A DNA stretch of 64,000 nucleotides from positions 4,128,359-4,192,358 of the forward strand of contig NC_087075.1 of assembly GCF_026151205.1 (NCBI RefSeq), written 5' to 3'. A program made the translations under genes and the position numbers. This document shows, piece by piece, positions 3,101-49,600 of the stretch; the first letter of the stretch is position 1; each line of letters begins with the position of its first letter. Under the pieces are notes generated by a model. That model was not told the origin of the DNA, did not search any database, and saw only the letters and a list, made by a program, of their open reading frames with translations. The DNA is from Bolinopsis microptera. Lineage: Eukaryota; Ctenophora; Tentaculata; Lobata; Bolinopsidae.

Positions 3101-6100
3101 AGAAATGGAGAAATCATCGATTATAGCACGGCAACATTTTTCTGATTAGACGTTTCTACTATTATTATTTGTATTAAACTTATAAATTGTGAAAAAATAA
3201 AAACCTACCGAGGTTAGTAAGAAACTGTTCCTTAGAATCAATCTTCCTATCACAGTGAGAACACTTGAAACAGTCATGGTGCCAGTGTTTGTTCAGGGCC
3301 ACTACCCACGCTGACTCTATTTCTTTTTCGCATCCTGCACACACCTTCTCCCTGTACATTGGTAAATTAGTTTTAAATTGTTAGTTTAAAACTTTAAAAT
3401 ATACTGATTTTAAATACTAATTTTACCACGACAAATAGTTTTATCCTTAACCGTTTTGGCGTCTTGCGTAGCATAAATAGTAAATTTAACATAGTTACAG
3501 ATAAGTATTAGTTCATCAAATTCCGACGAGATATCAAAAATTCGGAATGACACTGTGTTAATAGTCAACTGATAAATAGAAACCAATGAAGGGGTTTGAA
3601 ACCAATTAACAGATCAATATCCTTCACGATGAATTAAAAATTGATGTGCAGCATTATTTAGAAATATTATATAAAATATGTACATACTTGACATCAAGAC
3701 CAGCAACTCCTTTGGTAACCTTACAATCGCCACATTTTGGAACATGTTTACCGTCAACTTCCACCTGGAACATACGAAATTAAGTTAATTAATTGATCAA
3801 TTAATTAACTTAATATAATTTAATTGGATTCAATCAAATGACGAGTCAGAGAGTAAAGCGATCTCTACAAATTTAACTTTTAAACATGGCCTTAGTGCCT
3901 TTCATTGCAAAATGAGGGGCAGCCTTACATATTGCTATGTAGTCAGGGTTTAAACTGACTAAACCAGGTTAAAACATTCCCATACCAACACACAGTGAAT
4001 AATACACAGTACACAGTACACAAAAAAGGTTGTATCATACCTTGAAGAACTTTTCCTTAGGGTCAATAACTCTGGTGCACTCAGTACACTTGAAGCAGCT
4101 GGAGTGCCAAGTGTTACCTAGCCCTATAACCCACGCCTTGTCTATTGCCTCCCCACACCCTTGACAAGTCCTGGGGGAGTAGTAGTTACTTAGTTACCTA
4201 GCAACTGTAACCTAGCAACTGTAACCTAGCAACTGTAACCTAGCAACTGTAACCTAGCAACTGTAACCTAGCAACTGTAACCTAGCAACTGTAACCTAGC
4301 AACTGTAACCTAGCAACTGTAACCTAGCAACTGTAACCTAGCAACTGTAACCTAGCAACTGTAACCTAGCAACTGTAACCTAGCAACTGTAACCTAGCAA
4401 CTGTAACCTAGCAACTGTAACCTAGCAACTGTAACCTAGCAACTGTAACCTAGCAACTGTAACCTAGCAACTGTAACCTAGCAACTGTATCCTAGCAACT
4501 GTAACCTAGCAACTGTAACCTAGCAACTGTAACCTAGCAACTGTAACCTAGCAACTGTAACCTAGCAACTGTAACATAGCAACTGTAACATAGCAACTGT
4601 AACCTAGCAACTGTAACCTAGCAACTGTAACCTAGCAACTGTAACCTAGCAACTGTAACCTAGCAACTGTAACCTAGCAACTGTAACCTAGCAACTGTAA
4701 CCTAGCAACTGTAACCTAGCAACTGTAACATAGCAACTGTAACATAGCAACTGTAACCTAGCAACTGTAACCTAGCAACTGTAACCTAGCAACTGTATCC
4801 TAGCAACTGTAACCTAGCAACTGTAACCTAGCAACTGTAACCTAGCAACTGTAACACAGCAACTGTAACCTAGCAACTGTAACCTAGCAACTGTAAACTA
4901 GCAACTATAACCTAGCAACTGTAATCTAGCAACTGTAACCTAGCAACTGTAACCTAGCAACTGTAATCTAGCAACTGTAACATAGCAACTGTAACATAGC
5001 AACTGTAACCTAGCAACTGTAACCTAGCAACTGTAATCTAGCAACTGTAACCTAGCAACTGTAACCTAGCAACTGTAATCTAGCAACTGTAACCTAGCAA
5101 CTGTAACCTAGCAACTGTAACCTAGCAACTGTAACCTAGCAACTGTAATCTAGCAACTGTATCCTAGCAACTGTAACCTAGCAACTGTAATCTAGCAACT
5201 GTATCCTAGCAACTGTAACCTAGCAACTGTAACCTAGCAACTGTAACCTAGCAACTGTAACCTAGCAACTGTAATCTAGCAACTGTAACCTAGCAACTGT
5301 AACCTAGCAACTGTAACCTAGCAACTGTAACCTAGCAACTGTAATCTAGCAACTGTATCCTAGCAACTGTAACCTAGCAACTGTAACCTAGCAACTGTAA
5401 TCTAGCAACTGTAATCTAGCAACTGTAACCTAGCAACTATAACCTAGCAACTGTAATCTAGCAACTGTATCCTAGCAACTGTAATCTAGCAACTGTATCC
5501 TAGCAACTGTAACCTAGTAACTGTAATCTAGCAACTGTAACCTAGCAACTGTAACCTAGCAACTGTAACCTAGCAATTGTATCCTAGCAACTGTAACCTA
5601 GCAACTGTATCCTAGCAACTGTAACCTAGCAACTGTAAACTAGCAACTATAACCTAGCAACTGTAACCTAGCAACTGTAACCTAGCAACTGTATCCTAGC
5701 AACTGTAACCTAGCAACTGTAACCTAGCAACTGTAACCTAGCAACTGTAACCTAGCAACTGTAACCTAGCAACTGTAACCTAGCAACTGTAACCTAGCAA
5801 CTGTAACCTAGCAACTGTAACCTAGCAACTGTAATCTAGCAACTGTAACCTAGCAACTGTAACCTAGCAACTGTAACCTAGCAACTGTAACCTAGCAACT
5901 GTAATCTAGCAACTGTAACCTAGCAACTGTAACCTAGCAAGTTATCAGAAACACAGAACATTGCTGTGCTTGTTTACAGTTTTTAGTAACAATCTTATTA
6001 ATATGAAGGATGGATCCTATATATAAAATCGACCAACAACAAATAGACGATAACATTAGTAGCAGCTATATAGCAACTGTAACCTAGCAACTAGATAACA

Positions 6101-9100
6101 TTAGTAGCAGCTATTAGAAAACTAGTAGTAGCAGCTATATATATATTAGCAACTGTAACCTAGCAACTAGATAACATTAGTAGCAGCTATTAGAAAACTA
6201 GTAGTAGCAGCTATATATATATTAGCAACTGTAACCTAGCAACTAGATAACATTAGTAGCAGCTATTAGAAAACTCGGACTGAAAAAGAACCAGGTATGC
6301 AAAGATAACATTATCAACATAAATTTATAAATTTATAAATTTATAAATTTATAAATTTATAAATTTATTAATTTATTAATTTATAAATTTATAAATTTAT
6401 AAATTTATAAATTTATAAATCAACATATCAACATATATATTACGAATAGCTTACTTGGATTCTCCGATAGAAGGATCGTCTTTTTTAGCGCAGTCTACAC
6501 AGGTTCTCACACCTGGGGGTGAAGTTATTTTAATCACTTAATGAGAAGAGAAGGTTAGTTGTTACTTCTTTAGAGAATCAATCCTGGTTTATTTTGGGGA
6601 ATTTTTAAATGGGCATCGATAAAATTTGATTGAGCACTTTAAGTTTAATGGGTGAAAATTTCGATGGAAATTTAAGACTTTTATTATTTATATGTGCACC
6701 TCTAATAAACCCATTGCAAATAAAAAGGAAAAACGCATTGTTTGACTGATAAACTAGTACCTTCATTAAATTTGTAAGGTAATTAAACTTAAAATTATTA
6801 TTTACATTGTATTAACTTATTAATATTCATAACATAAAAGAATTATTCATCAGTATACCTCCGTTATGTTTAAGTGACTCATGAGCCCCAATCATCCGGT
6901 GGCACTTATGGCACGTAAAACACTCCTTATGGTATTTAGCCTTAGAGAAGAGTATCCAGGTTTTGTCTGTTATCTTGGTGAAGCAGGCCGGACACGTGGC
7001 CGATGACATGATGCAGCGATTACTCTATATACAAACGTATGCTATTAGTGTAGGGCTGAAATGTGCTTTAAATATAGATTAGATAGGAACTCAAGAAATT
7101 GCAAAGTCAAGAAATTGAGAAAACAACAAAAGTACAGTAATATAATGATGAGACAAACAAAGCACAAATAAAGCACAAATAAAGCCCAAACAAAGCACAA
7201 ATAAAGCACAAACAAAGCACGTGCAACCTGCGTCAGAGCCTTGAGTATCCACGTGAGATTGTCGCACACGTGGAAGAGGACATTCGAGGAGGAGACATTA
7301 TTAGAAGAGGACATTTATAGTCATTACTCTTTTTTACCTAGTTCAAGGCTTGTAAGAGTCTACATATTTCGCAGCATTTGTAGGATCATAACATAGTTTT
7401 AAAAACTATTTCTAATTGATATGGTTCAGCGAGACTCCCAATAAACTCAAACAGAGCCTTTTGATATTTATATCCTTATTTATAGCTTAGTAAGTTAAAT
7501 TGCATTCCTACGCAAATGTTAAAGAGGCCCCTTCCAGCCATTGCCACTGCGAATTTAACCTAAAACCTGCCCAGTTAATAGCGAAGACTGCGAAATTACC
7601 ACTCCTGCCTAGTAATCTAATTTACCCTGTCCAGATCAGCAGTATATTACACTAAATCCGCAGGTTTTCTCTTAATTTTTAATGTCAAAACCTGCCTAAT
7701 TAACTAGTGATCCTGCATCAACAGCGCAGGTATTTGTTATTTGGCAGGTTTTCTATTAACTTGGCAGGATTTGCTATAAAATTATCAATCCTTTCCGGAT
7801 GGATTACGGCAGTGATAAAGTTAAATCGGCAGGTTTTCCATTAACTTGGCAGGATTTTTTATAAAATTATCAATCCTTGCCGGATAGATTACGGCAGTGA
7901 TAAAGTTAAATCGGCAGGTTTTCCATTAACTTTGCAGGATTTGTTATAAAATTATCAATCCATGCCAAATAGATTATAATACTATAATCTTATTATGGCA
8001 GCGTTAAATTTATAAATTGGCAGGTTTCTTTTATCTTTCTTTTAAGTTCTTAAGTTATTTGGAATTTTGCTTATTTGGCACCAAAACTAAAATTCAATAA
8101 AACCGAGTTGATTAGCGCAGTCAAGAAATTGGCCGGAGTTGATAAAAAGCTGACAACCATGGCACTGAATCTCTATATACTTATATAGTACGGTACCGCA
8201 ACAATTGACCCCCTCCCCCCCCCCCCCCCCCCCCCCTCCGACAAATGACCCCCTGATGCAATCTACCCCCGACAATTGACCCCCCATGTAATTACACTGG
8301 GGTCAATTCAGGGTTAGGGTAAGGGTTAGGGTTAGGGTCAGGGTTAGGGTCAGGGTTAGGGTCAGGGTTAGGGTCAGGGTTAGGGTCAGGGTCAGGGTCA
8401 GGGTTAGGGTCAGGGTCAGGGTTAGGGTTAGGGTTAGGGTTAGGGTTAGGGTTAGGGTTAGGGTCAGGGTCAGGGTTAGGGTCAGGGTTAGGGTTACTGG
8501 GTAACACGACTCCTGTCAGCGACATCTGTCCGACAGCGACATCTGTCCGACTCAGGGTACCAGAAAAAACGACATTTGTCCGAAATTTTGATCTGATTTC
8601 AATACAACACATTTCCAATTAGAGACGTGATCTGAACTGTTAATTTGAATACGTAACATTGCCAATTTGAGATATGATCTGAGCCATAGTGTACTACTAG
8701 TTTATTTTCGACCTAGGCAGGCAGGCATGAAGCAACTGCGTTGTGAATGGCGAGCTCGTAGTCCATGAGAATTGAGAATGTATTGTGGTTGGTAGCCCCA
8801 AGGCCTCAGTAGCCCAGGTGTCTATGTCCTCGAACATGTTGCGGTAGAGGGTCGTCGATTTTCCAGGAATGAGTCCTTAGAAGAGGGGGAGGTGCCAGCC
8901 GTCAGGGAAGAGTCCGTGGACTGTGAAGAGCTGATGGAAGAGATTAGGTGCGGATTTGAAGGTACCGTTGGGCGTTGACTACGCAATGCTCCGCGTCCAC
9001 CATATGATCTGCGTTCTTAGGAGTCCCCCAAAGGAATGATCGACGAGTCTATTCGTCCCATCCAGAGTCCCAGAGCATCATTGGACTGTCGTCGGTAGAG

Positions 9101-12100
9101 AGGATTTAGTTTGCAGGAATGGATAGCGTTTCCAGATCTCTCGGGTCTGTTTGCTGCAGATCTGGGTCTGTTTACTGAAGATTGGTTGCCATTGTGAATT
9201 GCGATAACTGATCTCCATACGGCTGCTATCCTATATGTACTCATGTAGGCTGTGTCCTGTGATGTGATCGACAGCTTGTTAGTGTACGGCTAGCACAATC
9301 CTGTCCTTAAATAGTCAATCACGTATCGATGGATCAGATCTCAATGGATCAAATCAGCATTCGAACAATGGGAGCAACGTCACGAAATTACCCGTGAGTT
9401 TGTGAAATACGAATGTGAACCGAAATTACAATATGATCCGAAATTCGGACAGATGTCGCCAAAAACGACTCCTGTCCGACAGCGAAATCTGTCCGAAATC
9501 CCCAATTCGGCTGTCGGACAGATGTCGCTGTCGGACAGATGTCGCCCAATCGGGTTACTGTTAGGGTTAGTATAATAAATATATTTGTTTGGTCAATTGT
9601 CGGGGGGGGGGGGGGGGGTCAATTTTCAAGTATTATATCACTTGCACCGTTTAGCTCCACGTGGTTTCTTAAGCTTAAATACTTAACTGTCCTGTCAAGA
9701 TAAAGTAAATCACTATCACCTCTCATTCTTAATAAGTTAGTAAGCAAGCATCTGATCATTTTAAAACAGTCACCTCCCAATTTAGCAAGTTCTTACATCT
9801 ATATTACAGTCTACACCCTTCAATAATGGGATAATATGTTTGGCCGGTAGAGGGTCCGCAGTAGTCCCATTACAGCATTACCTCATTACCTTAGCATTGC
9901 TGTACAGTCTACAACTACTATAAGAGTATAAGATATACATCCTTCACCAAAACTGGTTTGTCCGCTTTCTATTACTAATTTTCCGCTGAAAGTGCCACAT
10001 CAGTGATCAATTAATATTGGTAAATAGCAATAATTTGAGTTATAGGTTGACCTCCCACTTAGAGCATATGTGGGAGGTCAACCTATAAATTATAGTACGA
10101 GCTATTTCCAATTCGTGAATACGAATTTCGATTAAGGTCCAACTTATTAAGTGTCACTTTAACGTGTGACAAATTTCCGATCAAATATCTCATAATCTGA
10201 AAATAACTGCATATTTAGAACTATTATATTAATTGTAATTGAAGATTCTTTCAGAATCACTTCATTCACTAAATCTTACAATGTGAACAATGAACAGGTA
10301 GAGGCACTGCAACTGAAAAAGTGCTGTCCTCACTACTTAAGTACATAGCAATCTAATCTAAAAATGGCAACCTAAGAACTGAAGTTAAGCAAACAGTTAT
10401 TTTCCAATAATCGGATTTTATACATACTTTTATACTCAAACTTATCATAGACCCCGTGTTGGTAACAGTGGATAATATGCAGTGGCGAAACGTACCTAAG
10501 AGGCCGCAGCTGCACCCCCCCCCCCCCCCCCCCCCCCCATCCCCTTCCGCATAGCAGGGGTTGCCGGAGTGTCGGGCGGTCGTTTCGCCACTGACTAGTG
10601 ACTGCATGTATAAAAGTATAATCTATAGAGCCATGTAGGCATGTACCTAGCATTCTGTACTTCTGTAGCTTTGCACAAACCAAGTCTCAGTCCTACACCC
10701 TACCTAGTAATAAGGTTATACGATCATTACAGTATTCCACATTGTACACTCAAATTATCCAAAACCCCTGCCAATATAGGTTTAATCACGCCACAAGTTG
10801 ATTCAAATTATCTCAACTTACGCAGGAATTGCGTTAAATCTGCAGCATTCGACTTTATATTTAACGGAAAACCTGCCAAAATAGAGCAAACCTGCCGAGA
10901 GTAGGTGAAAGGTGAGGCAGGTTTTGTGTTAATTTTGCAGGCTTTTCTATAAATCAACAACTCGATTAAATAATTAAATCTCTGCACGAATACGATAAAT
11001 AGGCAGGTTTTCGGTTAATTTTGCAGGAATCATTTTAAGACTTCAAATTGATTATCAGTCTTAATGTAAAACCTGCCAAATTAGGTGGCAGGTGGCAATG
11101 GCTGGAAGGGGCCTTTAAAGGTTCACATGATTCACAACCTAATGAAATTGAGTAGAGATTTAAAAAGTAAGAAACTAAGAAATGATAACAATAAAGTGAG
11201 CAAGAAAATCCATGATGACGAGACAAACAATGTCCGTTTACAGTTTACACTCGCAAGGAGGAGGACAGATGTTAACATTAACCAGAAACCCTGGTTTTAA
11301 CAAGTTTTAACAGGTTCTACTACTGACGCTCGGAGTACAGCTGTCGAGTACTGTTGACTGTTGAGTACTTCAGCACTCGACAGCTGTACTGCAGTTGTGC
11401 AGTGAAACTGTGGCTGTATAATAGGGTGATTAATAATAATTAGCACTCATTATATTCTAATAATAGGGTGATTAGTAACAATCTAGTAATAATGTAATAA
11501 TGTAATAATGTTAACTGCTAGGAGCTGCAGTTAACATTAACCAGCAACTTTGGTGTCTAACGTATTTTAACAAGAGACGTTAGGAGAAAGCAGCGAAGAT
11601 AGTTGAAAGATTGGCAGAATAAAGTGCCGAGTACTTACTAATAAACAATCTACGATAAAACTGTGTGTCTACCCATACAATTATAACAAGATGTAGACGT
11701 AAGCCACGTAAAGGTAAATATTCACGAGCAACAGCTTTGTTTAACCATCTTTAACACGGTCAGACACATCTCTGATCAGCACTTGTCAGAAACATCTCTG
11801 AGCAGCATTAACAGAGCTGCTGGAGCCTGGAAGCGTGACAGAATGGACTTTTAACTTATTAAGTAGGTATAGCACTCATCAACACGTGTTATTTGTCACG
11901 TGTTATTTGTCACGTGTTATTTGTCGGTGGTGAAGTAGGAGTTAGTGACCTCTTATTTCTCCGGTTCAACGCGAAAGTAACAAGGCGAGAATAAGTAGTG
12001 CTGAGAAAGAATAGACGAGACTAAGCTGCCTAGAATAATCTAAAAATAAATCGTCACGTGTCACATGTTTTATAATTCCTCAGTTGTGCGGCGAGAAACA

Positions 12101-15100
12101 GAAGCAGCAACGCTAAGGAAAAATAAAACCAACCGTATTATATACAACCACTAAAAGTGTGCGTATGTGATGTATATATTAAATAATATATATCAGCAAT
12201 ATATTGGAGAATCTTAGGGCTTTAATTGGGACAAAGGAGTCTGACAAGTGAGCCAGACATATCAACTGTAACCTAGCAACTGTAACCTAGCAACTGTAAC
12301 CTAGCAACTTATCAAACTGTAACATTGGGTTGTCTGGCTCAGCGAGGTATTGACATTGGTCAGTAGCAACGTGTGCAAAGGGAGGGGTACAAAAGATATA
12401 CAACAAGAGCTATAATATAGCAGTAGAAGGGCTTTCTAGCAACTTTTAATCAGGTTAGAAAAAGCAGGGAACAATTATAGACTGAAACAAGAATCTGAAA
12501 ATAAACAATAGACGCCTATAAATATGCGGCTCCCAGACATTTGTCGAGGAAGTACTAGGGGTGGAGCCAATACAGAAGAGCTATATAATAACATCTAATC
12601 GAGGACTTGTCACCAAGTTATTGACAGGTAGGGAGCAGTATCCCTATAATCCTAGCAACCAGGGCGCAACCAGGGAGCAATGAACATAGCATCCCTACAA
12701 TCCTAGCAACCAGGGCGCAACCAAGGAGCAATGAACATAGCATCCCTACAATCCTAGCAACCAGGGCGCAACCAAGGAGCAATGAACATAGCATCCCTAC
12801 AATCCTAGCAACCAGGGCGCAACCAAGGAGCAATGAACATAGCATCCCTACAATCCTAGCAACCAGGGCGCAACCAAGGAGCAATGAACATAGCATCCCT
12901 ACAATCCTAGCAACCAGGGCGCAACCAGGGAGCAATGAACATAGCATCCCTACAATCCTAGAGCAACCAAGGCGCAACCAAGGAGCAATGAACATAGCAT
13001 CCCTACAATCCTAGCAACCAGGGCGCAACCAGGGAGCAATGAACATAGCATCCCTACAATCCTAGCAACCAGGGCGCAACCAAGGAGCAATGAACATAGC
13101 ATCCCTACAATCCTAGCAACCAGGGCGCAACCAGGGAGCAATGAACATAGCATCCCTACAATCCTAGCAACCAGGGCGCAACCAAGGAGCAATGAACATA
13201 GCATCCCTACAATCCTTAGCAGGGGTAATACTGAGCTAGCGGCGATTTTGTGAGTTCCTAACTACTGAGTCTAAAACTAGTACTACGTTTTTAATGAAAC
13301 TTATAGCTATAATTCCTTGGAAGCTAATTGGTCATGAGAAATCTGAATTTAAGATCACTTTGTTTTTAACAATGCAAATTTTATGTAAAATAGTAACATT
13401 AGTATGACGACGGGTTTACTACTACTACTACTATTACATATGAAATATCAATAGGAAACCACAGGTAAAAGAAAACTCGCTTATTGGGTCATAAAATGTC
13501 GACAGAAACATGGCTTGTTTTACTGGAGTACGTGATGCTAGTGCCATTAGCTAATAGATATTATTAATGACACAAATATGTCACACTAATGTGACATCAC
13601 CTGACAGACATTATCGGGCTCTCATACCCATTATGCTGAGTATCCTCGTTATTGGTACGTACTAAGTTCAGTCAACAGCTGTGCAACAGACTAATCACGA
13701 GATTCTTATTGTCCTAGCGAATTGTCGTTCGATTTTATGAAGCTTAAAACGTAAGAGTAACGGTTTAAGTAACGTTTAGGTAAAGTAGCGTCTCGTCAGT
13801 TGATGAATTATAAATATAAGCAGCCAAACAAAACAGAATAAGGAAACAGAAAGATCCAGTATCCACAACACGACGTCAAAAACGAAACAAACTCATAACA
13901 AATTCTACAACATGACCTAAAAAATAAAATAAAACAAACTCATAACAAAATCTACGACAAGACCTTAAAAACAAAACAAACTCATAACAAATTCTACAAC
14001 ACGATCGAGCACTCAGCACTCAGCACAACCTAGCTTTGTGAAGCATGTAAAGGATTGTCTGAATGACTGACCCGTGTAGGAGCTAATCAAGAGAACTACA
14101 CGTTACCCACCACACATAATGTTATGACACGATCATTCATGTAATTTCATGAAATCATACCTTTATAAATAACACGTGACGTACATAATATGTCACGTGA
14201 CGTATGTTTTGTGTGACGTGTGTTACATATTTAATATTTATGTCACATAATGTCTTGTATGACATTCACCCCAGTCTCCTAATAAGTTACAGCTATACGC
14301 GACAAATATTTGTAGTGTGGAGATCTTGGGAATTCTTAATATGCTGGTGATGCCATAAATATGTTAAATATGTTAAATATGGTATGTAAGATCCTTATTG
14401 CGTAATAAGTCAATAAACGACTTTGTTAAATTCAGACTTCTATTCAAATCAAATCACAAATTTTATGCATCAACATGTTCACGATTTTTAGTCCAATATG
14501 AAATAATTGAGTGAAATCGAAAAGAGAAAGATCACCAAATCATGTTTATATTTTAATTTATTCAGTATTTTCTAGATTGGGATAAATCCAGCGAAATAAC
14601 TTTAATATTAATAAACCAACTTTTATTTCAAATCACGGAATTCCCAAAATCATTTCTAATTCACTCGAATTTGATACAACATTTTTTGAATTACTAAACT
14701 ATGTCTGTGAGAGTCTCTAAGTTTCGATGGAGAATGTTAGGACATATCTTAAGAGGACAGGAAGACTCACCAGCATACACCTCTATGTTATTTGCTATAA
14801 ATTCTGATATTTTTATGGAAGGGAGACGGGGTAGACCATGTTTAAACTTATTAGATGTTATTAGAAAAGACTTGACTAGAAGAAATCTTGATATTAGACT
14901 TAAGAATTTGACTGATTTCGAAGACCTTAGATTTTTAGCTTTAGATAGGGAGGAGTGGAAGAAGTTAGAAGATGGTTGATGTTTTTGTTTTCTTTTTTAT
15001 GCGTTTTGATATCTATAAGGTGCCTAGGATGCTCTTTTAAAGAGATATTTCGTACTTTGAAAGATTTACTACTACTACTACTAAACTACCAATAAGTTTA

Positions 15101-18149: not shown

Positions 18150-19265
18150 CCTTATCGGACCTTATTTGGACGGACATTAAATGAACGGACATAATTATAA
18201 ACGGACATTAATATGAACGCTAGAAGGCATTCAAAGCCATCAAAATTAAAAATCCGAATTCTTTTTTTTTTTTTTTACGTTTTTTTATTTCAGCAAATGA
18301 TTTTTAAATCCATTTTTTATACAGTAAGTAAGAAAAGCAGTCGTTCAGCAGTAAACATTTAAAAATATGTGTACATGACCAGTGTCTAATATCACATATC
18401 ATTTTCATCAAATGGGGTTTCGTGCATGAAATACTAAATAGTCCATGCTTAATTAAAGCATCAGTGATTTATAGCTTTATATGGAAACCTTTTTTCTTCA
18501 AACTACCCCAGTCCTGCATTTCAGTGTTAACTTTTACAAGCCATTCGGCGTGAAGTGGTTTTATCTTAGACAACTTTAGGTTAACCTTAACATCACGTGG
18601 AGCTTTCCTAGCACAGTTTCATTACCTCCCCTGAGTAATATGAACTATATCAACGTCGGACAATGTCCTTGGAAACACGATTAACCGTAATATCTAGAGG
18701 CTAGAACAAGTTTGTCATGTTGGCGGGGACTAGCTCATGAACTATGTCATTGAGTACCGTAATTTCGTTGACTTTTTTCGCCAAGTGACCCTTGAAAACA
18801 TCATATACCAGTAAAGTTTTCTGTTCCTCCGGCAGACCAAGGAGAACCGTTCCGTTGTAAACTTAATACGGCACAATAAAGTTCTCATAGTTGTCATATT
18901 CTGGACGAAAAGTTAGAATTTTTGAAAAAATTTCAACGGACTTTAACTTGGACGGACCTTAAATGAACGGACTTTATTTGGATAATGGATTGGGCGACAT
19001 CTGTCCGACAGCGACATCTGTCCGACATCTGTCGGACAGATGTCGCTGTCGGACAGGAGTCGTTTTTGGCGACATCTGTCCGAATTTCATATCATATTGT
19101 AATTTCGGTTCACATTCGTATTTCACAAGCTCACGGGTAATCTCGTGACGTTCTAATGCTAATGTGATCCCTTAATATCTGATCCATGGATACGTCATTG
19201 ACTAGTTGAGAACAGGATCGTGCTAGCCGTACCCTACTAACAAGCTGTCGATCACATCACAGGAC

Positions 19266-29583: not shown

Positions 29584-29895
29584 AAAATTACCCTTACGGG
29601 GGGGGGGGGGGGGGGGGTTCACCCTGATTTTTTTGTGAAACTTGGATTCGAGATAGCAGTTGACCAACAAACTAGGCCCCGTGACCAAACTTTTGAGGGG
29701 GTCCCGAACTTCAACCGCCAAACGGTGCCCGCGGGGCAGCCACGTCCATATTTGGTCCAAATTAGGCCAAATACCCGGAACATGCCCAAAATCCAAATTT
29801 TAGGTGTTCGGGAGGACCCGAACCCCTAGCAGAACACAGAACGTGCTAACATCATCGCAAGTTGCAAGCTTACCTAGTCCTGATGGTCGTCAGGT

Positions 29896-32800
29896 ATGAT
29901 CAACAAAATTTTGAGAGAAAACTGTAACCATTGCCTGAAAAACGTTTACATAGGTCAGCCGATGTTTGAGTGCAGTAGATGTAATTGTATTGCCCACTCA
30001 AAGTGTTTTTCACAATCAAAAGCACAAATTATTAATGACAACTTCTACTGCTTTTCGTGCAAAGATAAAATAGTACACAAGTACAATCCCTTCAAACACT
30101 TTGTAGATGACACAACCTCACCAGATGCACATGACGAAACATATAAAATATCCTCAATCTTAGACAAATGCCAAGCTTATTCTGCTAATGAAATCAACTC
30201 ATCGCATGGAGAAAATCTTAAAAAGTTTTCCAGCTCCTACTTTCTTAACATTGATGGCAATAAAAGCAATTTTGATAGTCTATTAACTGAACTGCACCGC
30301 ATTAACCAAAACTTCACCGCAATAGGTTTATCAGAAACTAACATAGGTCCTGATGAAAGCACCGTGTATTCAATTCCTAACTACAATAGTTTTTACCAGA
30401 ATACTGTAGGTAATAAATCCAAAGGAACTGGTGTAGCATTATATGTTCAAGATAGACTTAGCAGTATTGTGAACGAACTTGCGTCAGACGTTACCGAGAA
30501 TTTAGAATCACTATTCGTAACTAGTCGTAAAAACTCAGAAGAAGTAACTTTTGGGGTTATTTACCGACCACCCAGCGGTAATTTTGCAAGCTTCCTGACA
30601 GAACTATCTAGAATACTCCAGATATTGCCTAAAAAATCTGCGTATATAATGGGAGATTTTAACGTCAACCTCCATGTTAATAGTAAAGAAGTTAGCAATC
30701 TCGAGGAGATAATGTTTAGTGCCGGTTTCTCGCCTCTTATATCAACACACACGCACGAGAAGCCGGGATGTAATCAAACGTGTATTGACAACATTTACAC
30801 AAATGATATAAACAAGGTTGTTGCCTCAGGTACAGTATCTGACAGAATCTCGCATCATCTGCCAGTTTTTCATATTTTTGAAGACCTAGCTGTAACTAAC
30901 TCTGAACCCCAAGTTAAACATACCCAATATTATGATTACAGTGAATCAAACGTTCGAGTCCTTGTTTCATCCTTAAACCAACATTTCTCTGAGCACCCAC
31001 CAATAAACTTTATTGAATTTCACGACACATTCAAAACGAATCTAGACAAATCATGTAAACTCAGTAAACCTAAAGTCTCCAAAAGAACGCCAATGACAAA
31101 TCCGTGGATAACAGGAGGATTAATCGCGTCTATAAATAAAAAACATGAGCTGCACGACCACTGGCATAAAGCGAAGAGAGAAAAATGTTTGCATAATCCA
31201 GGTAAACTTTGTTGTGAGATCAAGGAAGCCTGTCACTGCAATCCTTGTAATGATGCCAGGGAAAAGCATGCTAATTTTACTGACAAACGTAGGAGAGTTA
31301 AACACGTAATAAGACTAGCTCAACGCCTCTACACGTGCAACAAAATTGAGGAGTGTCAGGGTGACAGTAAAAAAACCTGGCAGTTAATTAATAAAGTGCG
31401 AGGAAAGCAAAATAAGCAAATGAAACCGTCATTCATGATAAACAATGAGCGTGTTATTTGTCGACGAGTTATTGCTCATGAATTTAACAGGTACTTTGTG
31501 TCAATCGCCTCCAATCTGAACGAGGTCTATGAGAGGAGGATTGATGAAGATCCTATAATTGCTAAATCATTCACTGACTACTTGCCACAGTCCTGTCCGT
31601 CAAGTATTTATCTTGCTGAATGTACAAGCTCTGAAATAATACAAATTATAAGTGAATTTAATAACGGTAAAGCTAGCGACATACCGGCACATGTAATGAA
31701 GCAGTGTAGTCAAACTATATCAGAACATCTTGCCAGAATTTATAACAACTGCATGAATGAAGGTGTCTTCCCTGATCAACTGAAAACGGGTAAGATAACC
31801 CCGATATATAAAAAAGAAGATGAGGAATTACTAGAGAATTACAGGCCAGTATCAACATTACCAGTATTTGGTAAAATATTTGAAAAAATTATTTACAGTA
31901 GATTATACAACTTTTTCTTATCTCGAGGAATAATATTCGAAAATCAGTTCGGCTTTAGAAAAAACCACTCGACAAGTCATGCTCTTAACTACTCCGTAAA
32001 TCACGTCGAAGAAAAACGGAATAATAAAAACCACGTATTAGGAATATTTATCGATCTCTCTAAAGCATTTGATACCTTACCATTTGATATGCTACTTAAG
32101 AAACTTAGTAATTACGGAGTTAGAGGAAACGCACTAAAGCTGCTCTCCAGCTATCTAAATAATAGATACCAGTATGTTAGTGTACTTGGTGAAGAATCAG
32201 AGCCTCTCCCAGTTAAACTAGGCGTACCTCAAGGATCCGTTTTGGGCCCCTTGCTTTTTCTTATCTATATAAATGACATCTATAGATGTAGTACATTAGG
32301 AAAATTTGTACTATTTGCAGATGACACAAACATCTTTGTAGCTGCTGAAACTAAGGAACAAGCATACAAAATAGCGAATGAAATTCTCGACTCTGTGTGC
32401 CAATATATGCGCCATAACCTACTGCACATTAATGTTAAAAAATCTTGTTACATGTACTTCTCGCCTACTAAACGTAAGACCATTGATAATACTGAAAATG
32501 ACTTGAATCTAGAAATTGATGGGATCCCGATCAAACAGGTTACTGAAACGAAATTTCTAGGTGTAATTATTGATGACAAACTGAGTTGGACACCTCATAT
32601 CGAGAAACTAACTAAGAAATTAAACAGCATATGTGGCCGTATTTATCGAATAAAAAACTCCCTCCCCAGCCAGCTGTACAAACAGATATACCACACTCTT
32701 TTTGAATCTCATCTAGGATACGGTATAACTGTATGGGGTGGTGTATCAATTAATAAGCTTTCACCACTATTCATTGCACAGAAGAAATGTGTCCGAATCT

Positions 32801-33372
32801 TATTTGGGGACTCGGAAGCATTTAGCGACAAGTTTAAAACTTGTTCTCGTAGCAGGCCAATCCAGTGCAGTATAAACAAGAAAGGTCAAATATCCAATGA
32901 ATCAACTATACCTCACATTAAACCGTGTTCTATATGTATCAGCTTGAGGAAGACTGGTGATAAACAAGCAAGGCCACATCGCTGCCAAATACTTGGGGCA
33001 GAATTCCACTCTAGAGAATCAACAAAACCTATTTTCCAATCTAAGGAACTAATGACAGTACATAACATATATAGATACAGATGCATTACTGAAACAATGA
33101 AGATAGTGAAGAGTCATCAGCCCATATCCATGTATTCTCTCTTTAAGAAGTCTGAGCTCAGAGATGACAGATTTGTGACACCACACTCATCTCACAATTT
33201 CGCATATAAAGGGGCAAATTTATGGAATAGGTTTCTTGAGCAGTCAAATGCACGTGGTAAAATAGGTTCACTAGGTTCAATTAAATCCCGATTGAAGCTT
33301 TCTATCATGAAGGCTCAACACCAACCTGACAATATTAACTGGCAGGACTTAAACTTCAACACTTTCCTATGA
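29896..33372 (+). CDS. Intact LINE polyprotein: PHD finger, AP endonuclease, reverse transcriptase
   Basis: A 1158-residue uninterrupted ORF. Residues 10-55 form a C4HC3 PHD-type finger (C10, C13, C26, C29, H34, C37, C52, C55). About 100-330 is an exonuclease-endonuclease-phosphatase domain with SETNI, IYRPPSG, MGDFNVN and SHHLPVF motifs. About 630-870 is a reverse transcriptase with [56 protein letters not shown] and the catalytic FADDTN at about 807. The C-terminus has a Cys/His-containing tail. PHD plus endonuclease suits the CR1/L2 group, but the clade is not proven. No separate ORF1 and no poly-A tail were recognised. An ORF free of stops over 3.4 kb suggests a recent insertion, unlike the decayed fragments elsewhere in the window. 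Confidence 0.9.
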   Translation: [1158 protein letters not shown]

Positions 33373-40172: not shown

Positions 40173-43100
40173 ATGCTCTTGGTCGACACAACAAACATCA
40201 CCAATATTTCCAACATCAACAAAACATTGGGATTCCCAGAAGCAGGCTACTGGTTCCTGGTTACCTACCATTCTCTAGTTCTACTACTTACAGTTATTGG
40301 TAAATCTCCATCTGTAAATACGTTAGAATATCTTAATATTGGGGATTTGGGTGTGTGCCATTATACGGCACTTAATTTCACAGTTTCACAGTTTAAACTA
40401 CGCTGTTTATTTTGACAAATTATCTGTTTATTTTGATAAATTATCTGTCTATAATCGGTGTGAACACTTTAGTTAATCGTGTAATGTTTTTATTTGCTGA
40501 TTATAATACATCAACTTATTACGTGAATTAACCACGGTAATCATCGGTATCACGTGATTATCACGTGATTGTGAACCTGCAAAGTGTTACCATGGTAACT
40601 GCGCAGGTAACCTGACGGTGTTTGCCAGTTCGCGCCTGTATAACGAAGTAAACGTGGACAGTATCTCCATAGTGTTTGTTGAGATGTTGGCTATCTTGGA
40701 CCTTATCATTGCTTTTAGCTACAGTTTACCTGTTGCTATCACCCTTGCCGCTAACAAATTCATCTTAGGTGAGCAGTTCTTAAACCTAAGTGTAACAATG
40801 CATGTATAATTAATATGTGAATATGTGAATATGTGAAAATATGTAAAAACATGTGAAAATATGTGAAAACATGTGGAAATAAACTAAATACAACCTAGGG
40901 TTGAACTATGGATCATCATCAACTACTGTATTTAAATTTTCTTAAAAATTAGTTAAATAAACTGATCAGAAAGATAGTTGGGTGTGGTTACTCAGGTTTT
41001 ATCACAGGTGCAGCAGTGTGCTTCATTCAAGGAAATGTCAGCTACATAACCATCTTTATCCAGGTTTGTGTTTACGTATTCGTAATTTACGTAGGGTATA
41101 TAGTATCCATGGTAACACTACCATATAAGGTAGTGTTGCTGTGGTAACACTACCATATAAGGTAAAACGTTTCTATTCTCAGTCTAACCACCAACTCTAC
41201 ACAGTTGATAACTATCCAGACTATCTCTCTCTACAAACTGTTCACCTTACTCCGACCTCTCTCCTCGTATTCTCTAACTTCTAAACAAGCCAAACTGTTT
41301 GTAGCAGGTACTAATCTCAAGCTTGTTTGTTTGTTTGTTAACTTGTTCGATTAAACAGACTTATCAGATAAGGTAACACTACCGTGTCCGCGTTCACGCA
41401 ATGTCCGGTCAAATAAAGTCCGATAAGATATTACCAAAAATTGTATTCTACCGAATACGCTGGTGCTCAATAATAAATAATAATTGCACAATGATTACCA
41501 CCCATCCAGGAGTGACGGCGTTTTCTACATTTTACATGTTCTGCTGCCTGGTGATGGGACAGTTTTACTACTTTGATCCTTATCTTCTTTCTTGCCAGAT
41601 ATCAGGTGATATTTTGGCTGTAATGTATTTGTTACCATGGTAACACTTAATTACTTAACTAATTAACCAAGCAACCAATTAACCAATTAAACAATTAACC
41701 AATTAACTAATTAACTTATTAACTAATTAACTAATTAACTTATTAATTTATTAATTCAATCCTCTCCACCAGGTCAAACGGATCCCAGAAAGTCCATGGT
41801 TATCTCTGCTTTAGTAGCGCTCGTTCTCTTCGTCCTTCTCCCCATCACAACTATACTACTCTCCAACGCTTACATCTTGAGAATAGTTTATCGGAGCAGC
41901 AAAAAGAAGAGCAAGGTAAGTCACGTGCAAAGTGCAAGGTAATTCACGTGCAAGGTAAGTCACGTGCAAGGTAAGTCGCGTACTAATTACGTTGTTGCTC
42001 TCTACACTGATTGTGGAAAGAGAACAACAAATCATACCCATCCTACTTAACAATTTCTCATCAAATTAATTCAAATTATTTGGAAATGGTTTCTGACTTC
42101 TTACTTGTGGAAATTAAAACAGTAGTTCATGTCCAGTTATAATATTATTTTCATAGTCCTATGATAGAGATCCCAGTACTTGAACTGTATAAGATCCAAC
42201 GCATGTACACTGACTGTTGCCCCCACCCCTGCAGTTAGTAAGTATATATATTATATTTATATATATATATATATTATTAGTTAGCCACAACTATCAGTAA
42301 AACAACGCCTTGACTTCAAATGTCGGTAAAATGTACCTTTACAGTCATCCTCAAATTATTTGTTATATAGTAGTGTTGAAAGTATTAAATAATATATATA
42401 TATATTAATTATATTTACTTATAAGTTCTCTTCTCCTATTTAATCACAGTGCTCATGGCAAGCACGACCGCCGCCATTATACTCACCATACTATTTACCC
42501 ACTATACTATTATACCCCCTTTACTGTTTTTCCAGGCATTAAGACTCATCGAAAGTCGTTCAGCAGGCATATTTTAAGTTCAAAACATTTTAATTCAATG
42601 TCACAGATGAAAGGAATTGATATGTGGAGGTTTTTAAGAAATTTGCGCTCAATACGCACCAGCACTGTTATACGAAATTAGGTAAAAAACCAAAAATCGC
42701 CATATTCAGGTGCCTTAAAAACCATGTTAAAATTGAGTTAGAGATCTGAAATTTTGCAGGGCGTTTAGATGTTGACCAAATCGACTGTAAAAAAGTTTCA
42801 AGTTTCAGGAGTATCGGGAAGTGGGTTTCTGGAACCCTTATTTTCCGATAGATTGCCGTGAAGTATCTGTATATGTATATAATATGTATGTATCTATTTT
42901 AGAATTAGATACAGACCGCTGCCAGTGTCTCTCGTTCCCGAATGATATTAATGATTAATGACCGTCCGTAAATGCAAAATAATACCGAGAATGAAATGAG
43001 AGATTTGTATTTAAGGCGCTGATTTGCAATTTAAATTTAAAACTATGATAACTCCCTCTGATTTCGCAGCTTCTCGAGTTTTAAGGAGCTTGTGTATAAA

Positions 43101-46100
43101 CTGAATCGGGCCTTAAACTTAAAGGTGTTTTCAGTTAGCTCGATATAAGAACACAAATAAAACTCTCGAATTATTGCAATGTTCCCTTTGAATCACAAAA
43201 TATTATAAACTTTCTGTCACAGCAAGACTGCTTAATCCACAATAAAAACTTTAAACAGAACCCTGATCTTAGTCAACAATTTAAAACTCATCCGAACTAA
43301 CGTCTAGCATTTTAGTGTGTGCAAAACCTTTCGGGCCCGCGCATTCCTTACTCGGTTAATTGTTTGTGCTTCCACGCAGCACTATCCGATTAGCAGTCAA
43401 AGATACAAATTCATACATCAAATCGGCATTATCTTTATCGTTATGTTTATATTTAAGTGAATTGTACCTAAGAGTATACCCAGTATCAAAATGCTGAAAA
43501 TTTGGCAAATCGTTCAGCTTAATTTTTATATTTTTACATTGGGGGCAGTGTGTAAAACTGCTGATAGTTTATTTTATCGTTTGTACTTCCCTCACAATAA
43601 CTATAAGATTAATGTATAGTTCCAAGAGGAACTAACTCCATGCATTGTAAACTTATAAACGAATAAGTAGCAGACTATGCCATAAGATTTTTTTCCCGAT
43701 CCATGACTCAAAGTGCCGAAGGCACAAAAGAGTCAAGGACAAGGGTTAGCGAACGAAGTTTTTTTTTGTATATGGTAGCTTTCGTCCGCACCTGCGAGTG
43801 TGCGTACGTGTCGCCCACGTGTCTGCCTGCGCAAAGTTATTTTGCGCGAAAATCTGAATTAAACAATTGTTTGCGCGCGGTGCTGAAATGTTCAAGTACA
43901 TTGTTAATTTCACCATGTACGCATCCCGCTAGGGACTAATTGATAGCATTGTATTATTATTTTGAGTTAGTATTACTATTTTGCACAGATCCGTGTCTAG
44001 TCAGGTTGCATAAACAATAAACATATGGTTACATAGAAATATACACGATTTTCAAATTAAATATGGAATTATATCAACTGGGCGGCGCTCGGCCTGTCAC
44101 TCCGCCTTATCTGCATGCTTATAAACAGTAAAGACTGGGGTCCCCAGGTGGTATGGAATATGATCAAATACTCAAACACGGATCGGGAAATTGAGCGGCC
44201 ATCCACAAAAGAAAAGCGGCCGCATTTCTTGTTACGTCCCATGGTCGCTGTACTGGCAGGAAATATGAAAGGGAGAAGGAAACGTTGTAGAGTAGGTATA
44301 AGGTGTGACAACAGATTCACCAGGTGAGAAGGTGAGAGGAGCTGCAAGGTTGATAACTGGAGAAGAAACTGGGAATTAATCTGGAACTGGAAAGAAAGGG
44401 GTCAGAAAAGTTCAGGGGCTTTACAAATGTGAGAGGCTTCACGAAAGGTAGAGGCTTAACAAAAATGGGTCCTCCAACGCAACTGTTTTGGACGTAATTC
44501 GAAGCCTGACCGCTTTCGTGAGAATGATGTGATTTCCTTTCGATATCGTTCCGCTGATACGGTTTTTCGCCTGTATGAGTCATTTGATGGTAAGCAAGTG
44601 TTGATCTGTGGCTTCCACTGAAGGAACATTCAGAGCATTTAAACGGTTTTTCACCGGTATGAGTCATCTGATGTTTAACTAGGGTTTGTTTTAAGCTTGC
44701 ACTGTAGGAACATTCGGAGCATTTAAACGGTTTTTCACCGGTATGGGTCCGCTGATGGCAAACCAGGTTTGATCTGTGGCTTGCACTGTAGGAACATTCA
44801 GAGCATTTAAACGGTTTTTCACCGGTATGGGTCCGCTGATGGCAAACCAGGTTTGATTTTTGGCTTGCACTGTAGGAACATTCAGAACATTTGTACGGTT
44901 TTTCACCGTTATGAGTCATTTGATGGTAAGCAAGTTTTGATCTGTGGCTTGCACTGTAGGAACATTCAGAGCATTTAAACGGTTTTTCACCGGTATGGGT
45001 CCGCTGATGGCAAACCAGGTTTGATTTTTGGCTTGCACTGTAGGAACATTCAGAACATTTATACAGTTTTTCACCGTTATGAGTCATTTGATGGTGAGCA
45101 AGTTTTGATCTGTGGCTTGCACTGTAGGAACATTCAGAGCATTTAAACGGTTTTTCACCGGTATGGGTCCGCTGATGGCAAACCAGGTTTGATTTTTGGC
45201 TTGCACTGTAGGAACATTCAGAACATTTATACGGTTTTTCACCGTTATGAGTCATTTGATGGTAAGCAAGTTTTGATCTGTGGCTTGCACTGTAGGAACA
45301 TTCAGAGCATTTAAACGGTTTTTCGCCGGTATGGGTCCGCTGATGGCAAACCAGGTTTGATTTTTGGCTTGCACTGTAGGAACATTCAGAACATTTATAC
45401 GGTTTTTCACCGTTATGAGTCATCTGATGATTAAGCAGGTTTGATTTTTGGCTTGAACTGAAGGAAGATTCGGAGCATTTATACGGTTTTTCACCGGTAT
45501 GAGTCATATAATGGCAAACCAGGTTTGATTTTTGGCTTGCACTGTAGGAACATTCAGAACATTTATACGGTTTTTCACCGTTATGAGTCATCTGATGATT
45601 AAGCAGGTTTGATTTTTGGCTTGAACTGAAGGAACATTCGGAGCATTTATACAGTTTTTCACCGGTATGAGTCCGCTGATGTTTAACAAATTCTGATTTT
45701 CGGCTTGCACTGTAGGAACATTCAGAGTATTTAAACAGTTTTTCACCGGTATGAGTCCTCTGATGTAAAATTAAAGATGATTTTTGGCTTGTACTGTAGG
45801 AACATTCAGAGCATTTGAAAGGTTTTATGCCGGTATGAACGCTTTGGTGGGAAACTAAAGACTTTTTTCTGGAAGCACTGTAGGAACATTCAGAGCGAAT
45901 GCAAGCAGTTTTACTGGTATAAACCAATTGGTGTGGAACTAATGCTGATTCCTGATTGGGACAATACAACTGAGAAACACCATTCGAATACACTTCTGAT
46001 TTAATAGATAAGTTATCTTCGGACTCCTTCTTAATCTCTGTCTTGATCAATTCTGGTGGAAAACTTTCTTCTTCCATCTTCATCTCATCTTTAAGGTCTG

Positions 46101-47145
46101 GAACATTTTTCTGCTCCATTCTGATTCACTAAAACGACCTAACTAACGGTGCCTTTGAACAGTCGTCACTAGAAAACAAAATGAATATAAGTTCGAGATA
46201 TCTCCTCTCCAAAACTAAATTCCAGTGTTAATTTAGTTACATTAGGAGGAAACAAGTAGTATAATTAGTAACCCAGAAAATAGAAAATAAGCGAAGAAGG
46301 TTACCAAATTGGATACAAGTGTGACTGAAGCAGCAGTGAGCAGTGCAGACATTGGCACCACGGAGGTATTGCTGATAAGGCAGCTCATGTTGCAAAAATT
46401 GTTTTTCAAAGATTCCTAAGTTTGTGGAATATTTGGTAATTCATACCCCAGCCCCATTCTTTCCGTTACAAACCGTAAGTTAAGTTACAGTTATTTGTTA
46501 TAGATTTTGAGTTACTCAGTTACATAAATATAAATTCTGGTGAGCCATTTGTTAGACGCGTCACGTGTCTAAATTCGGTTCGGTCCCGGTCAAAATTCGG
46601 CATTTTAGCTGGGACCGGGATTCCCGGTCGATTTTTGACCGGGATTAAGCCGGGATCCCGGTCGAACCTTAGACACGTGACAGTGATACTGGGTTTTCAT
46701 CGGTCAATTATAGAATTATAGAGGACACTGATATTGGTTAATTAAAACTATTTAATCAGTGATGTTTCCAACAGATGCCGAGTAAAGCCGCGCTGACAAC
46801 TCTGACTTCCATCTCCCTCTCTTTCCTGATCTTCACTACCCCCACCTTCGCTAGAGTCCTTCTTCAGACCCTTTTCAAAGGTTATTCATCTAGGATTCTA
46901 AACAGGATTGAAAAAAAACAATAATTCATTCTCGAGTACAAGCCCAACAATCCTTTACCTGTAATATTTATTAATTACACTTTAATTAATTAACAGTTAA
47001 TTACACTTATTAATAACCCTACAACCCAGGTACGATTCCCTCGTGGTATTTTGTGACCCAGCTAGAGCTGTTATTCCTTAACTCTGCTACTAATCCCATC
47101 ATCTACACCTTTACCAATACTAGGTACTGTTCGTTAGACATGTGA
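40173..47145 (+). CDS. Class A (rhodopsin-like) GPCR, 302 residues
   Basis: Eight exons: 40173-40299, 40607-40768, 41008-41063, 41205-41307, 41510-41605, 41773-41915, 46775-46880 and 47030-47145. They sum to 909 nt in frame. The extracellular N-terminus has three N-glycosylation sequons (NIT, NIS, NKT). TM1 has GN (1.50); TM2 has LAILD (2.50). C3.25 in AAVCFIQGN and a cysteine in extracellular loop 2 (LLSCQI) can form the conserved disulfide. TM3 ends ISLYKLFTLLRPL, so DRY is replaced by LYK. TM5 has a proline in LLPITTILL; TM6 has FTTPTF without the usual C-W; TM7 has NSATNPIIY. The position of the opsin retinal lysine is phenylalanine, so it is not an opsin. Ligand unknown. AATAAA at 47150-47155 closely follows the stop. 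Intron 6 holds the zinc-finger gene on the other strand. Confidence 0.88.
41100..41180. repeat. Duplicated GGTAACACTACCATATAAGG motif
   Basis: Two copies of TAACACTACCATATAAGGTA in GPCR intron 3, partly palindromic, and each containing a CArG-like CCATATAAGG. Confidence 0.7.
41916..41980 (+). repeat. Tandemly duplicated splice donor
   Basis: The exon 6 donor (GCAAG|GTAAGTCACGT) is followed by three further copies with GT at 41939, 41955 and 41971. Spacing is 23, 16 and 16 nt. Only the first gives the full-length receptor frame; read-through meets a stop within eight codons. Confidence 0.85.
42442..43006. mobile_element. Foldback element, copy C (deleted)
   Basis: Matches the right end (CACAGTGCTCATGGCAAGC) and adjoining body of copies A and B, then jumps to part of one hairpin arm (GACCGCTGCCAGTGTCTCTC). 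The rest of the palindrome is lost. Lies in GPCR intron 6. Confidence 0.8.
43007..44316. other. No gene seen (GPCR intron 6)
   Basis: AT-rich, with a GC-richer patch at 43720-43890. Open frames here are short and unsupported. It includes the likely 3' UTR of the zinc-finger gene at its upper end. Confidence 0.4.
44317..46119 (-). CDS. Intronless C2H2 zinc-finger protein, 16 fingers
   Basis: A 600-residue single-exon ORF. Residues 1-70 are acidic and hold three sumoylation-type motifs: IKTE (25-28), IKKE (29-32) and IKSE (39-42). From about 73 to 521 are 16 C2H2 fingers of 28 residues with TGEKPFK/NGEKPYK linkers. Finger 3 lacks its first cysteine (Y instead) and finger 6 its second (S). Fingers 7 to 13 alternate two nearly identical types (QKSNLVCH, HRSKLAYH) in a 168-bp tandem pattern. 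The tail has three FVKPL repeats. It is probably a nuclear DNA-binding regulator with unknown target. No KRAB, SCAN or BTB domain is present. It lies entirely within GPCR intron 6, antisense to the receptor, and lack of introns suits a retrocopy or a naturally single-exon gene. Confidence 0.9.
   Translation of the reverse strand: MEQKNVPDLKDEMKMEEESFPPELIKTEIKKESEDNLSIKSEVYSNGVSQLYCPNQESALVPHQLVYTSKTACIRSECSYSASRKKSLVSHQSVHTGIKPFKCSECSYSTSQKSSLILHQRTHTGEKLFKYSECSYSASRKSEFVKHQRTHTGEKLYKCSECSFSSSQKSNLLNHQMTHNGEKPYKCSECSYSASQKSNLVCHYMTHTGEKPYKCSESSFSSSQKSNLLNHQMTHNGEKPYKCSECSYSASQKSNLVCHQRTHTGEKPFKCSECSYSASHRSKLAYHQMTHNGEKPYKCSECSYSASQKSNLVCHQRTHTGEKPFKCSECSYSASHRSKLAHHQMTHNGEKLYKCSECSYSASQKSNLVCHQRTHTGEKPFKCSECSYSASHRSKLAYHQMTHNGEKPYKCSECSYSASQKSNLVCHQRTHTGEKPFKCSECSYSASHRSNLVCHQRTHTGEKPFKCSECSYSASLKQTLVKHQMTHTGEKPFKCSECSFSGSHRSTLAYHQMTHTGEKPYQRNDIERKSHHSHESGQASNYVQNSCVGGPIFVKPLPFVKPLTFVKPLNFSDPFLSSSRLIPSFFSSYQPCSSSHLLTW
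46560..46681. mobile_element. Short MITE-like inverted repeat (122 bp)
   Basis: Ends GTCACGTGTCTAA and TTAGACACGTGAC, with further inner inverted CCCGGTC/GACCGGG repeats. No target duplication seen. In GPCR intron 6, about 95 bp before the TM6 exon. Confidence 0.6.
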
Positions 47146-49403: not shown

Positions 49404-49600
49404 TCATCAGAACACCACGTGACGTCATTACAACACCACGTGACGTCATTACAACACCACGTGACGTCATCAAACACCACGAGACGTCATCAAAACACCA
49501 CGTGACGTCATCAAAACACCACGTGACGTCATCACAACACCTCGTGACGTCATCAAAACACCACGTAACGTCATCACAACACCACGTGATGTCACTATGA
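49404..49600. repeat. About 20-bp minisatellite carrying E-box plus CRE in each unit
   Basis: Nine to ten units of ACACCACGTGACGTCATCAA. Most contain overlapping CACGTG (E-box) and TGACGTCA (CRE). Variants CACGAGACGTCA, CTCGTGACGTCA and CACGTAACGTCA break one or the other. The minus-strand open frame through it is a repeat artefact. Confidence 0.92.

Follow-up and report, generated by a model that had tools for sequence, protein, structure and literature searches.

Minisatellite units are usually regarded as arbitrary. A locus in a 64,000-nucleotide stretch of the genome of the ctenophore Bolinopsis microptera (C4:4128359-4192358, here called the window) raises the question of whether the sequence of such a unit can carry a meaning. 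A long tandem array of 14-mers (the main array) repeats a word that reads as an RFX X-box, and a sequence-only reading had described it as a satellite of X-boxes inside an intron, possibly a single oddity.

Read in register from position 4193, the main array (4193-5941, plus strand) consists of 125 head-to-tail 14-mers with the consensus GTAACCTAGCAACT, spaced by 14 bases throughout, and 84 of the 125 units are perfect. TRF delimits nearly the same array (4196-5940, period 14, 124.6 copies, 95% matches); the head-to-tail copies and their high identity make it a minisatellite or satellite, and its proposed size of about 125 units was borne out. Bases 1-13 of GTAACCTAGCAACT fit GTNRCC-N-RGYAAC exactly, as had been claimed, with the X-box oriented along the plus strand. 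The strict pattern GTNRCC(0-3N)RGYAAC is matched by 86 units, so that one tandem repeat gathers tens of copies of one transcription factor motif. We reject a chance match, since the consensus was satisfied by only 22 of 200,000 14-mers drawn at random from the genome and repeated in tandem, and by 1 of 20,000 shuffles of the unit. The junction between units also spells CAACTG, which we take to be a MYB word. A MYB site as the true common motif was rejected as well, with MYB words in array units at 5 against 5.2 expected. Moreover, of 89 units scored in a sister array (L002; 101 units, 75 strict X-boxes), 83 have A as base 14 and 6 have T; this change alters CAACTG and keeps the 13-base core that L002 and the main array have in common.

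The 39 units that fail the strict match carry one or two changes each, mainly at positions 4-6. Of 42 substitutions in the main array, the left half (positions 1-6) takes 38 and the right half (positions 8-13) 3, with a single one in the spacer; T occupies position 14 without exception in the 124 units scored. The unit combines one perfect half-site with a weaker one: the right half-site pattern has GTTRCC as its reverse complement, and the left half, GTAACC, departs from this at its third base. Given how many changes fall in the left half and how many units fail, we see no protection of the X-box within the main array and no sign of selection for complete X-boxes. Because variants spread by duplication, they represent few events, and we draw no selection argument from them.

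The main array lies within a putative intron of a LIM-domain gene, with the following features (window coordinates, here and below).

4171-6454, minus strand: putative intron holding the main array, with boundaries placed at splice signals and LIM frames on either side
4035-4193, minus strand: open frame with a LIM exon, downstream of the array (PF00412 LIM, E 3e-10, 40.6 bits)
6827-7024, minus strand: open frame with a LIM exon, upstream of the array (PF00412 LIM, E 8e-8, 32.9 bits)

Further minus-strand open frames match PF00412 LIM at 3180-3380 and 2647-2850. The splice sites, read from the letters, would be an acceptor AG at 4172-4171 and a donor GT at 6454-6453; a short exon probably ends at 6455, next to the donor GTAAGC. 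So delimited, the main array makes up 1749 of the 2284 bases of the putative intron, about three quarters, and its edge lies some 20 nt from the predicted acceptor. From these frames and signals we infer the gene model around the main array, and the earlier placement of the array inside an intron is supported by the LIM frames on its two sides.

Other X-box features occur elsewhere in the window.

6067-6275, plus strand: 76-bp composite repeat, 2.8 copies, with 3 perfect X-box cores (TRF and motif scan)
12263-12309, plus strand: short second array, 3.4 copies of the main-array 14-mer (TRF and motif scan)
40586-40599, no strand: palindromic X-box GTTACCATGGTAAC (motif scan)
41631-41644, no strand: palindromic X-box GTTACCATGGTAAC (motif scan)
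51769-51849, no strand: 19-bp array ATGGTTACCACGTGATGTC, a half-site adjoining an E-box word; GTTACTATGGTAAC at 51769 matches the X-box
57287-57365, no strand: 9-bp array TAACTATGG, tandem GGTAAC half-sites (TRF)

The perfect units pointed out previously are present both in the composite repeat and at 12268-12308, where there are again 3 perfect X-box cores, and the palindromic X-boxes expected near 40587 and 41632 were found at 40586 and 41631. The window also contains an interstitial telomere-like array (8310-8496, AGGGTT, 31 copies by TRF). TRF finds 17-bp repeats at 8517-8551, 9510-9545 and 18994-19062, such as CAGCGACATCTGTCCGA and the reverse-complement-like GCTGTCGGACAGATGTC, which are perhaps pieces of a dispersed element. 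A 602-amino-acid open frame at 44317-46125 (minus strand) shows, by eye, a run of C2H2-like zinc fingers, and its DNA is an 84-bp tandem repeat; a 1162-amino-acid open frame at 29884-33372 resembles a non-LTR retrotransposon, its first part matching endonuclease families below cut-offs.

We scanned the genome (264.65 Mb in 232 contigs, of which 13 large scaffolds make up 97.5%) for the consensus at spacers of 0, 1, 2, 3 and 5, on both strands, with palindromic sites counted twice and the reversed pattern as control. Matches numbered 20,385 at spacer 1 (383 for the control; 53x) and 20,903 at spacer 2 (531; 39x), against 3,637 at spacer 3 (401; 9.1x), 2,020 at spacer 0 (558; 3.6x) and 2,028 at spacer 5 (341; 5.9x); these site counts are dominated by long arrays and do not equal counts of events. 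The excess follows the RFX preference for spacers of 1-3 bases. It also depends on a single base: when RGRAAC replaced RGYAAC (a purine for a pyrimidine) at spacer 1, 745 matches were found against 563 for the control. This pyrimidine dependence was measured over the genome-wide class, not on the main array by itself. Palindromic sites behaved similarly on one strand, where GTTACCATGGTAAC occurred 786 times (control 1; about 1.1 expected from composition) and GTTGCCATGGCAAC 123 times (control 0; 0.4 expected), and GTTTCCATGGAAAC, in which the pyrimidine is broken, occurred 10 times (control 1; 1.1 expected). Many of the arrays are direct repeats of one half-site that the permissive GTNRCC scores as an X-box; since GTNRCC is permissive at base 3, they are better named half-site (AGYAAC) arrays. 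Half-site arrays at spacer 5, outside the RFX range, are also present. Overall, the base and spacing preferences of the genomic X-box excess agree with RFX recognition. The idea that the array might be a single oddity did not hold, as it belongs to a very large class.

The genome also encodes candidate readers of these sites. Profile searches identified two RFX loci, one with an RFX DNA-binding domain at C9:5271502-5271687 (PF02257, 88.1 bits) and one on C4 near 11.987 Mb, where PF02257 matches in two adjacent pieces (49.3 and 28.2 bits). The C9 domain is identical to human RFX1 (1dp7) at 41 of 61 residues (E 2.3e-24). RFX is an ancient regulator of ciliary genes. A zf-C4 profile search of the genome gave no match, as would suit a ctenophore, but this is a weak result as its control likewise gave none.

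Near the left end of C1, at about 8-720 kb, there is a dense zone of X-box arrays, which was not seen in small samples about 60 kb from other chromosome ends. Eighteen one-kilobase samples placed about 60 kb from chromosome ends (one of them all N) held 0 X-boxes with about 2 expected, compared with 23 in a 200-kb interior sample. A general subtelomeric satellite was rejected on these counts, which, with about 2 expected, exclude only strong enrichment.

A less biased sample of 20 evenly placed 10-kb loci contained 24 X-boxes and 1 reversed match, with X-boxes present in 5 of the 20 loci. Together, the window and this sample (264 kb) hold 214 tandem arrays, which reduce to 147 non-redundant minisatellite units. 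RGYAAC was found in 13 of these units (5.0 expected) and RGRAAC in 3 (5.5 expected); RGYTAC, which overlaps GTAAC words on the other strand, was found in 10 (4.7 expected). A full X-box occurred in 4 of the 147 units, one of them the window array chosen beforehand, against 0.12 expected; this number was reached in 0 of 1000 draws, and the reversed control gave 0. Outside called arrays, X-boxes numbered 9 against 1 in 211 kb, to which arrays below the TRF threshold may contribute.

Other words are enriched too. CACGTG occurred in 9 of the 147 units (1.0 expected) and TGACGTCA in 3 (0.1 expected). An earlier word count, which took in 160 units, ranked ACTAG first among 5-mers (16 v 3.7 expected), CTAGTA first among 6-mers (10 v 1.2) and CACGTGA first among 7-mers (9 v 0.6), with GTAAC in third place on the 5-mer list (18 v 6.4) and GTAACTA next after CACGTGA on that of 7-mers (8 v 0.6). 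The palindromic words CACGTG, ACTAGT and GACGTC were also enriched in array units; single words standing for MYB, ETS, FOX, GATA and nuclear receptor sites were not, at low power (0.65 to 5.2 expected). The concern that other minisatellites would score equally well for arbitrary motifs thus met with a mixed answer, holding for CACGTG, TGACGTCA and ACTAG/CTAGTA and not for the five factor words. Because ACTAG, CTAGTA, CACGTG, TGACGTCA and RGYTAC are enriched as well, something less specific than RFX may have caused the array excess; more broadly, the arrays of this genome may accumulate several words, the RFX word being the one measured genome-wide. As separate observations, the top rank of ACTAG/CTAGTA comes partly, perhaps not only, through GTAACTAG (window arrays and L009-L028); CACGTGAC/TCACGTGA are in excess outside arrays as well; and the window has CACGTG(A)-based minisatellites at 49404-49594, 51775-51849 and 11883-11925, with TGACGTCA words at 49404.

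The 14-mer itself recurs at several loci, on at least C1, C2, C3, C4 and C7. Its two-unit 28-mer was found 247 times forward and 62 times in reverse, compared with 0 and 0 for the reversed pattern. In fetched stretches, 14-mer units number 44 in L065, 8 in L064 and 2 in L001; L003 has 18, mostly paired inside an 87-bp repeat. On C1, the 49 GTTACCATGGTAAC sites fall into 25 clusters when joined at 2 kb, and 20 of these hold a single site. We compared 40 palindrome stretches, made up of 20 C1 GTTACCATGGTAAC clusters, 18 GTTGCCATGGCAAC places, L069 (a GTTGCCATGGCAAC cluster at 1243-bp spacing) and L070 (a longer stretch round L043), two of which overlap; BLAST matches of at least 60 bp sorted them into 26 groups. 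The stretches of one group share a dispersed element whose X-box stands among CACGTG words (L036, L042, L043, L044, L047 and L070), found at 5 of the 20 C1 loci fetched; in the five C1 stretches L036, L042, L043, L044 and L047, this element may be the regulatory portion of a mobile element. In L069 (C1:14850301-14853600), a unit with GTTGCCATGGCAAC in each copy stands three times in tandem at 1243-bp spacing, and relatives of this repeat occur in eight other stretches, 9 of 19 in all. Pairs of GTTGCCATGGCAAC about 1243 bp apart were also noticed on C2, C3, C5 and C6. The X-box carriers are thus in part clearly unrelated.

Arrays were compared in a set of 21 stretches, consisting of 17 further ones together with L001-L003 and the window array. 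The 17 had been chosen for their hits (12 for X-box or 28-mer, 5 for spacer 5) and are uninformative on frequency. Their TRF periods include 7, 8, 9, 12, 14, 19, 20, 21, 22, 31, 91 and 109, and half-sites occur in both direct and inverted order. BLAST linked 14 of the 21 stretches into one group and left 7 standing alone. Outside the 14-mer family the links are mostly gapped and of 65-80% identity, which can arise without common origin among arrays that share one short word and similar periods. Fully independent array families, as first judged by eye, are nonetheless a weaker proposition after this linkage, and many arrays may share descent.

Because these preferences for base and spacing are in line with RFX recognition, we place the main array among the RFX half-site minisatellites, a large class. 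Tentatively, and at a little under an even chance, we propose that it is a homotypic cluster of RFX half-sites within this genome-wide class, and that predicted RFX recognition underlies the abundance of the word. A seed site with the half-sites GTNRCC and RGYAAC at spacer 1 would have grown into the main array by ordinary tandem duplication, joining a class that carries the same word in dispersed elements and single sites as well as in tandem arrays. The animal's RFX proteins would recognise these sequences, and this recognition would make the word common at these spacings, either because arrays that gather RFX sites are kept for action in cis (as enhancer or silencer modules in introns or near promoters) or because RFX-bound sites duplicate or survive more often. 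Today the main array would most likely respond to RFX as an intronic element of the LIM-domain gene, and chromatin may keep it silent. A bolder form of the proposal, which we think fairly unlikely, makes the RFX site itself a nucleus for the birth or retention of minisatellites, with binding or selection having repeatedly turned X-boxes into arrays until tens of thousands of sites formed a dispersed regulatory or architectural layer. The sequence, the copy number, the genome-wide excess with its dependence on base and spacing, several unrelated carriers and the RFX genes are observed; from these patterns we infer occupancy in vivo, any influence on the gene, the reason for the excess and the frequency of new array births. 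The RFX reading of the array is accordingly supported in part: the exact match, the base- and spacing-dependent excess and the RFX genes speak for it, and its status as a lone curiosity was lost.

A purely mutational origin strikes us as fairly improbable; on this view, words such as GTAAC/GTTAC with short linkers would duplicate in tandem with unusual ease in this genome, and the array would be inert, without any protein taking part. The genome is certainly rich in varied minisatellites, as the 214 arrays in 264 kb attest; array units are enriched in further words, several palindromes among them (CACGTG, ACTAGT and GACGTC), and the X-box is unprotected in the variation of the main array. However, such a process should tolerate RGRAAC or GTTTCC..GGAAAC about equally, and both show little excess. 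Palindromy is insufficient, as the 64 palindromic 6-mers pooled occur in 87 array units with 66 expected. Hairpin-driven growth of the main array was rejected, since a run of eight units, taken on the array strand, folds less stably than every one of 200 shuffles (z +2.97), and the X-box excess outside called arrays, possibly including sub-threshold arrays, also argues against an origin in tandem duplication alone. Diversification of one or a few ancestral GTAAC satellites into most families, with the motif kept by descent, would account for the spread of the 14-mer over at least five contigs, for the alignment of L002 to the window array (88% over 1429 bp by BLAST) and for the linkage among array stretches. 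Because of that linkage, we moved this explanation up from scarcely credible to simply improbable, lowered the preferred reading from an even chance to just short of one, and slightly reduced the weight of the nucleus proposal, which had been unlikely already. Against descent, the links outside the 14-mer family are of the kind expected of arrays sharing a short word; the stretches standing alone, and units that vary in period, linker and half-site orientation, fit it poorly, and it leaves the near-absence of RGRAAC variants and the single-site palindromes unexplained. Since the dependence on one base and on spacing is common to carriers that are partly unrelated, blind slippage or descent alone explains it poorly; this dependence suggests the trace expected of an RFX-like reader of DNA.

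The spread of the X-box by mobile elements, with arrays growing from element copies by local duplication, has visible examples in the dispersed CACGTG/X-box family and in the 1243-bp repeat with GTTGCCATGGCAAC. We consider it quite unlikely as the general cause, because the 40 palindrome stretches fall into so many groups and no such element was noticed round the window array on local inspection of its flanks. Finally, the arrays might act jointly as a sink that titrates RFX protein, for which spacers 1 and 2 together supply about 40,000 matches to the consensus, with both strands scanned and palindromes counted double; but the arrays could lie in closed chromatin, and a sink seems to us highly improbable.

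The closest known kind of system is that of the MORC3-restricted repeats, among them a human IFNB1 element with 45 PU.1 sites that MORC3 holds silent (PMC13373173). As in the main array, each unit there carries one transcription factor site and repeat expansion gathers tens of like sites (PMC13373173). The factors differ, being SPI/PU.1, AP-1 and SP/KLF there and RFX, predicted from sequence, here; and large PU.1 clusters are described as exceedingly rare in the genome (PMC13373173), whereas X-box arrays are very many. The X-box of ciliary genes, with the restricted consensus RTNRCC N1-3 RGYAAC (PMC2375033), resembles our arrays in consensus, in spacer range and in the presence of RFX genes. 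It was sought upstream of genes (PMC2375033), whereas the sites described here lie in tandem arrays, in dispersed elements and within an intron. Satellite-like arrays of oyster Helentrons are likewise short, tandem and dispersed through the genome, but they are carried by one kind of mobile element (PMC7492417); here there are many periods and a common, predicted protein-binding word. In a ctenophore, the loop-anchor motif bound by CTEP1/CTEP2 is also over-represented and has regulatory meaning, but it is a GC-rich zinc-finger motif and not an X-box, and the term RFX is absent from the main text of that paper (PMC12221973). Among the open-access matches listed, from which most subscription papers and preprints fall away, none described an X-box satellite or minisatellite, none joined RFX, X-box and minisatellite, none treated RFX and the X-box together with tandem repeats and a transposable element, and none mentioned the letters GTTACCATGGTAAC.

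What the locus offers is a genome in which many arrays and single sites share one transcription factor half-site, with a specificity for one base and for spacing that can be measured. Should binding be confirmed, a natural experiment would be at hand on whether the origin and later course of tandem repeats are guided by transcription factor binding. It would concern RFX in an animal that is probably heavily ciliated.
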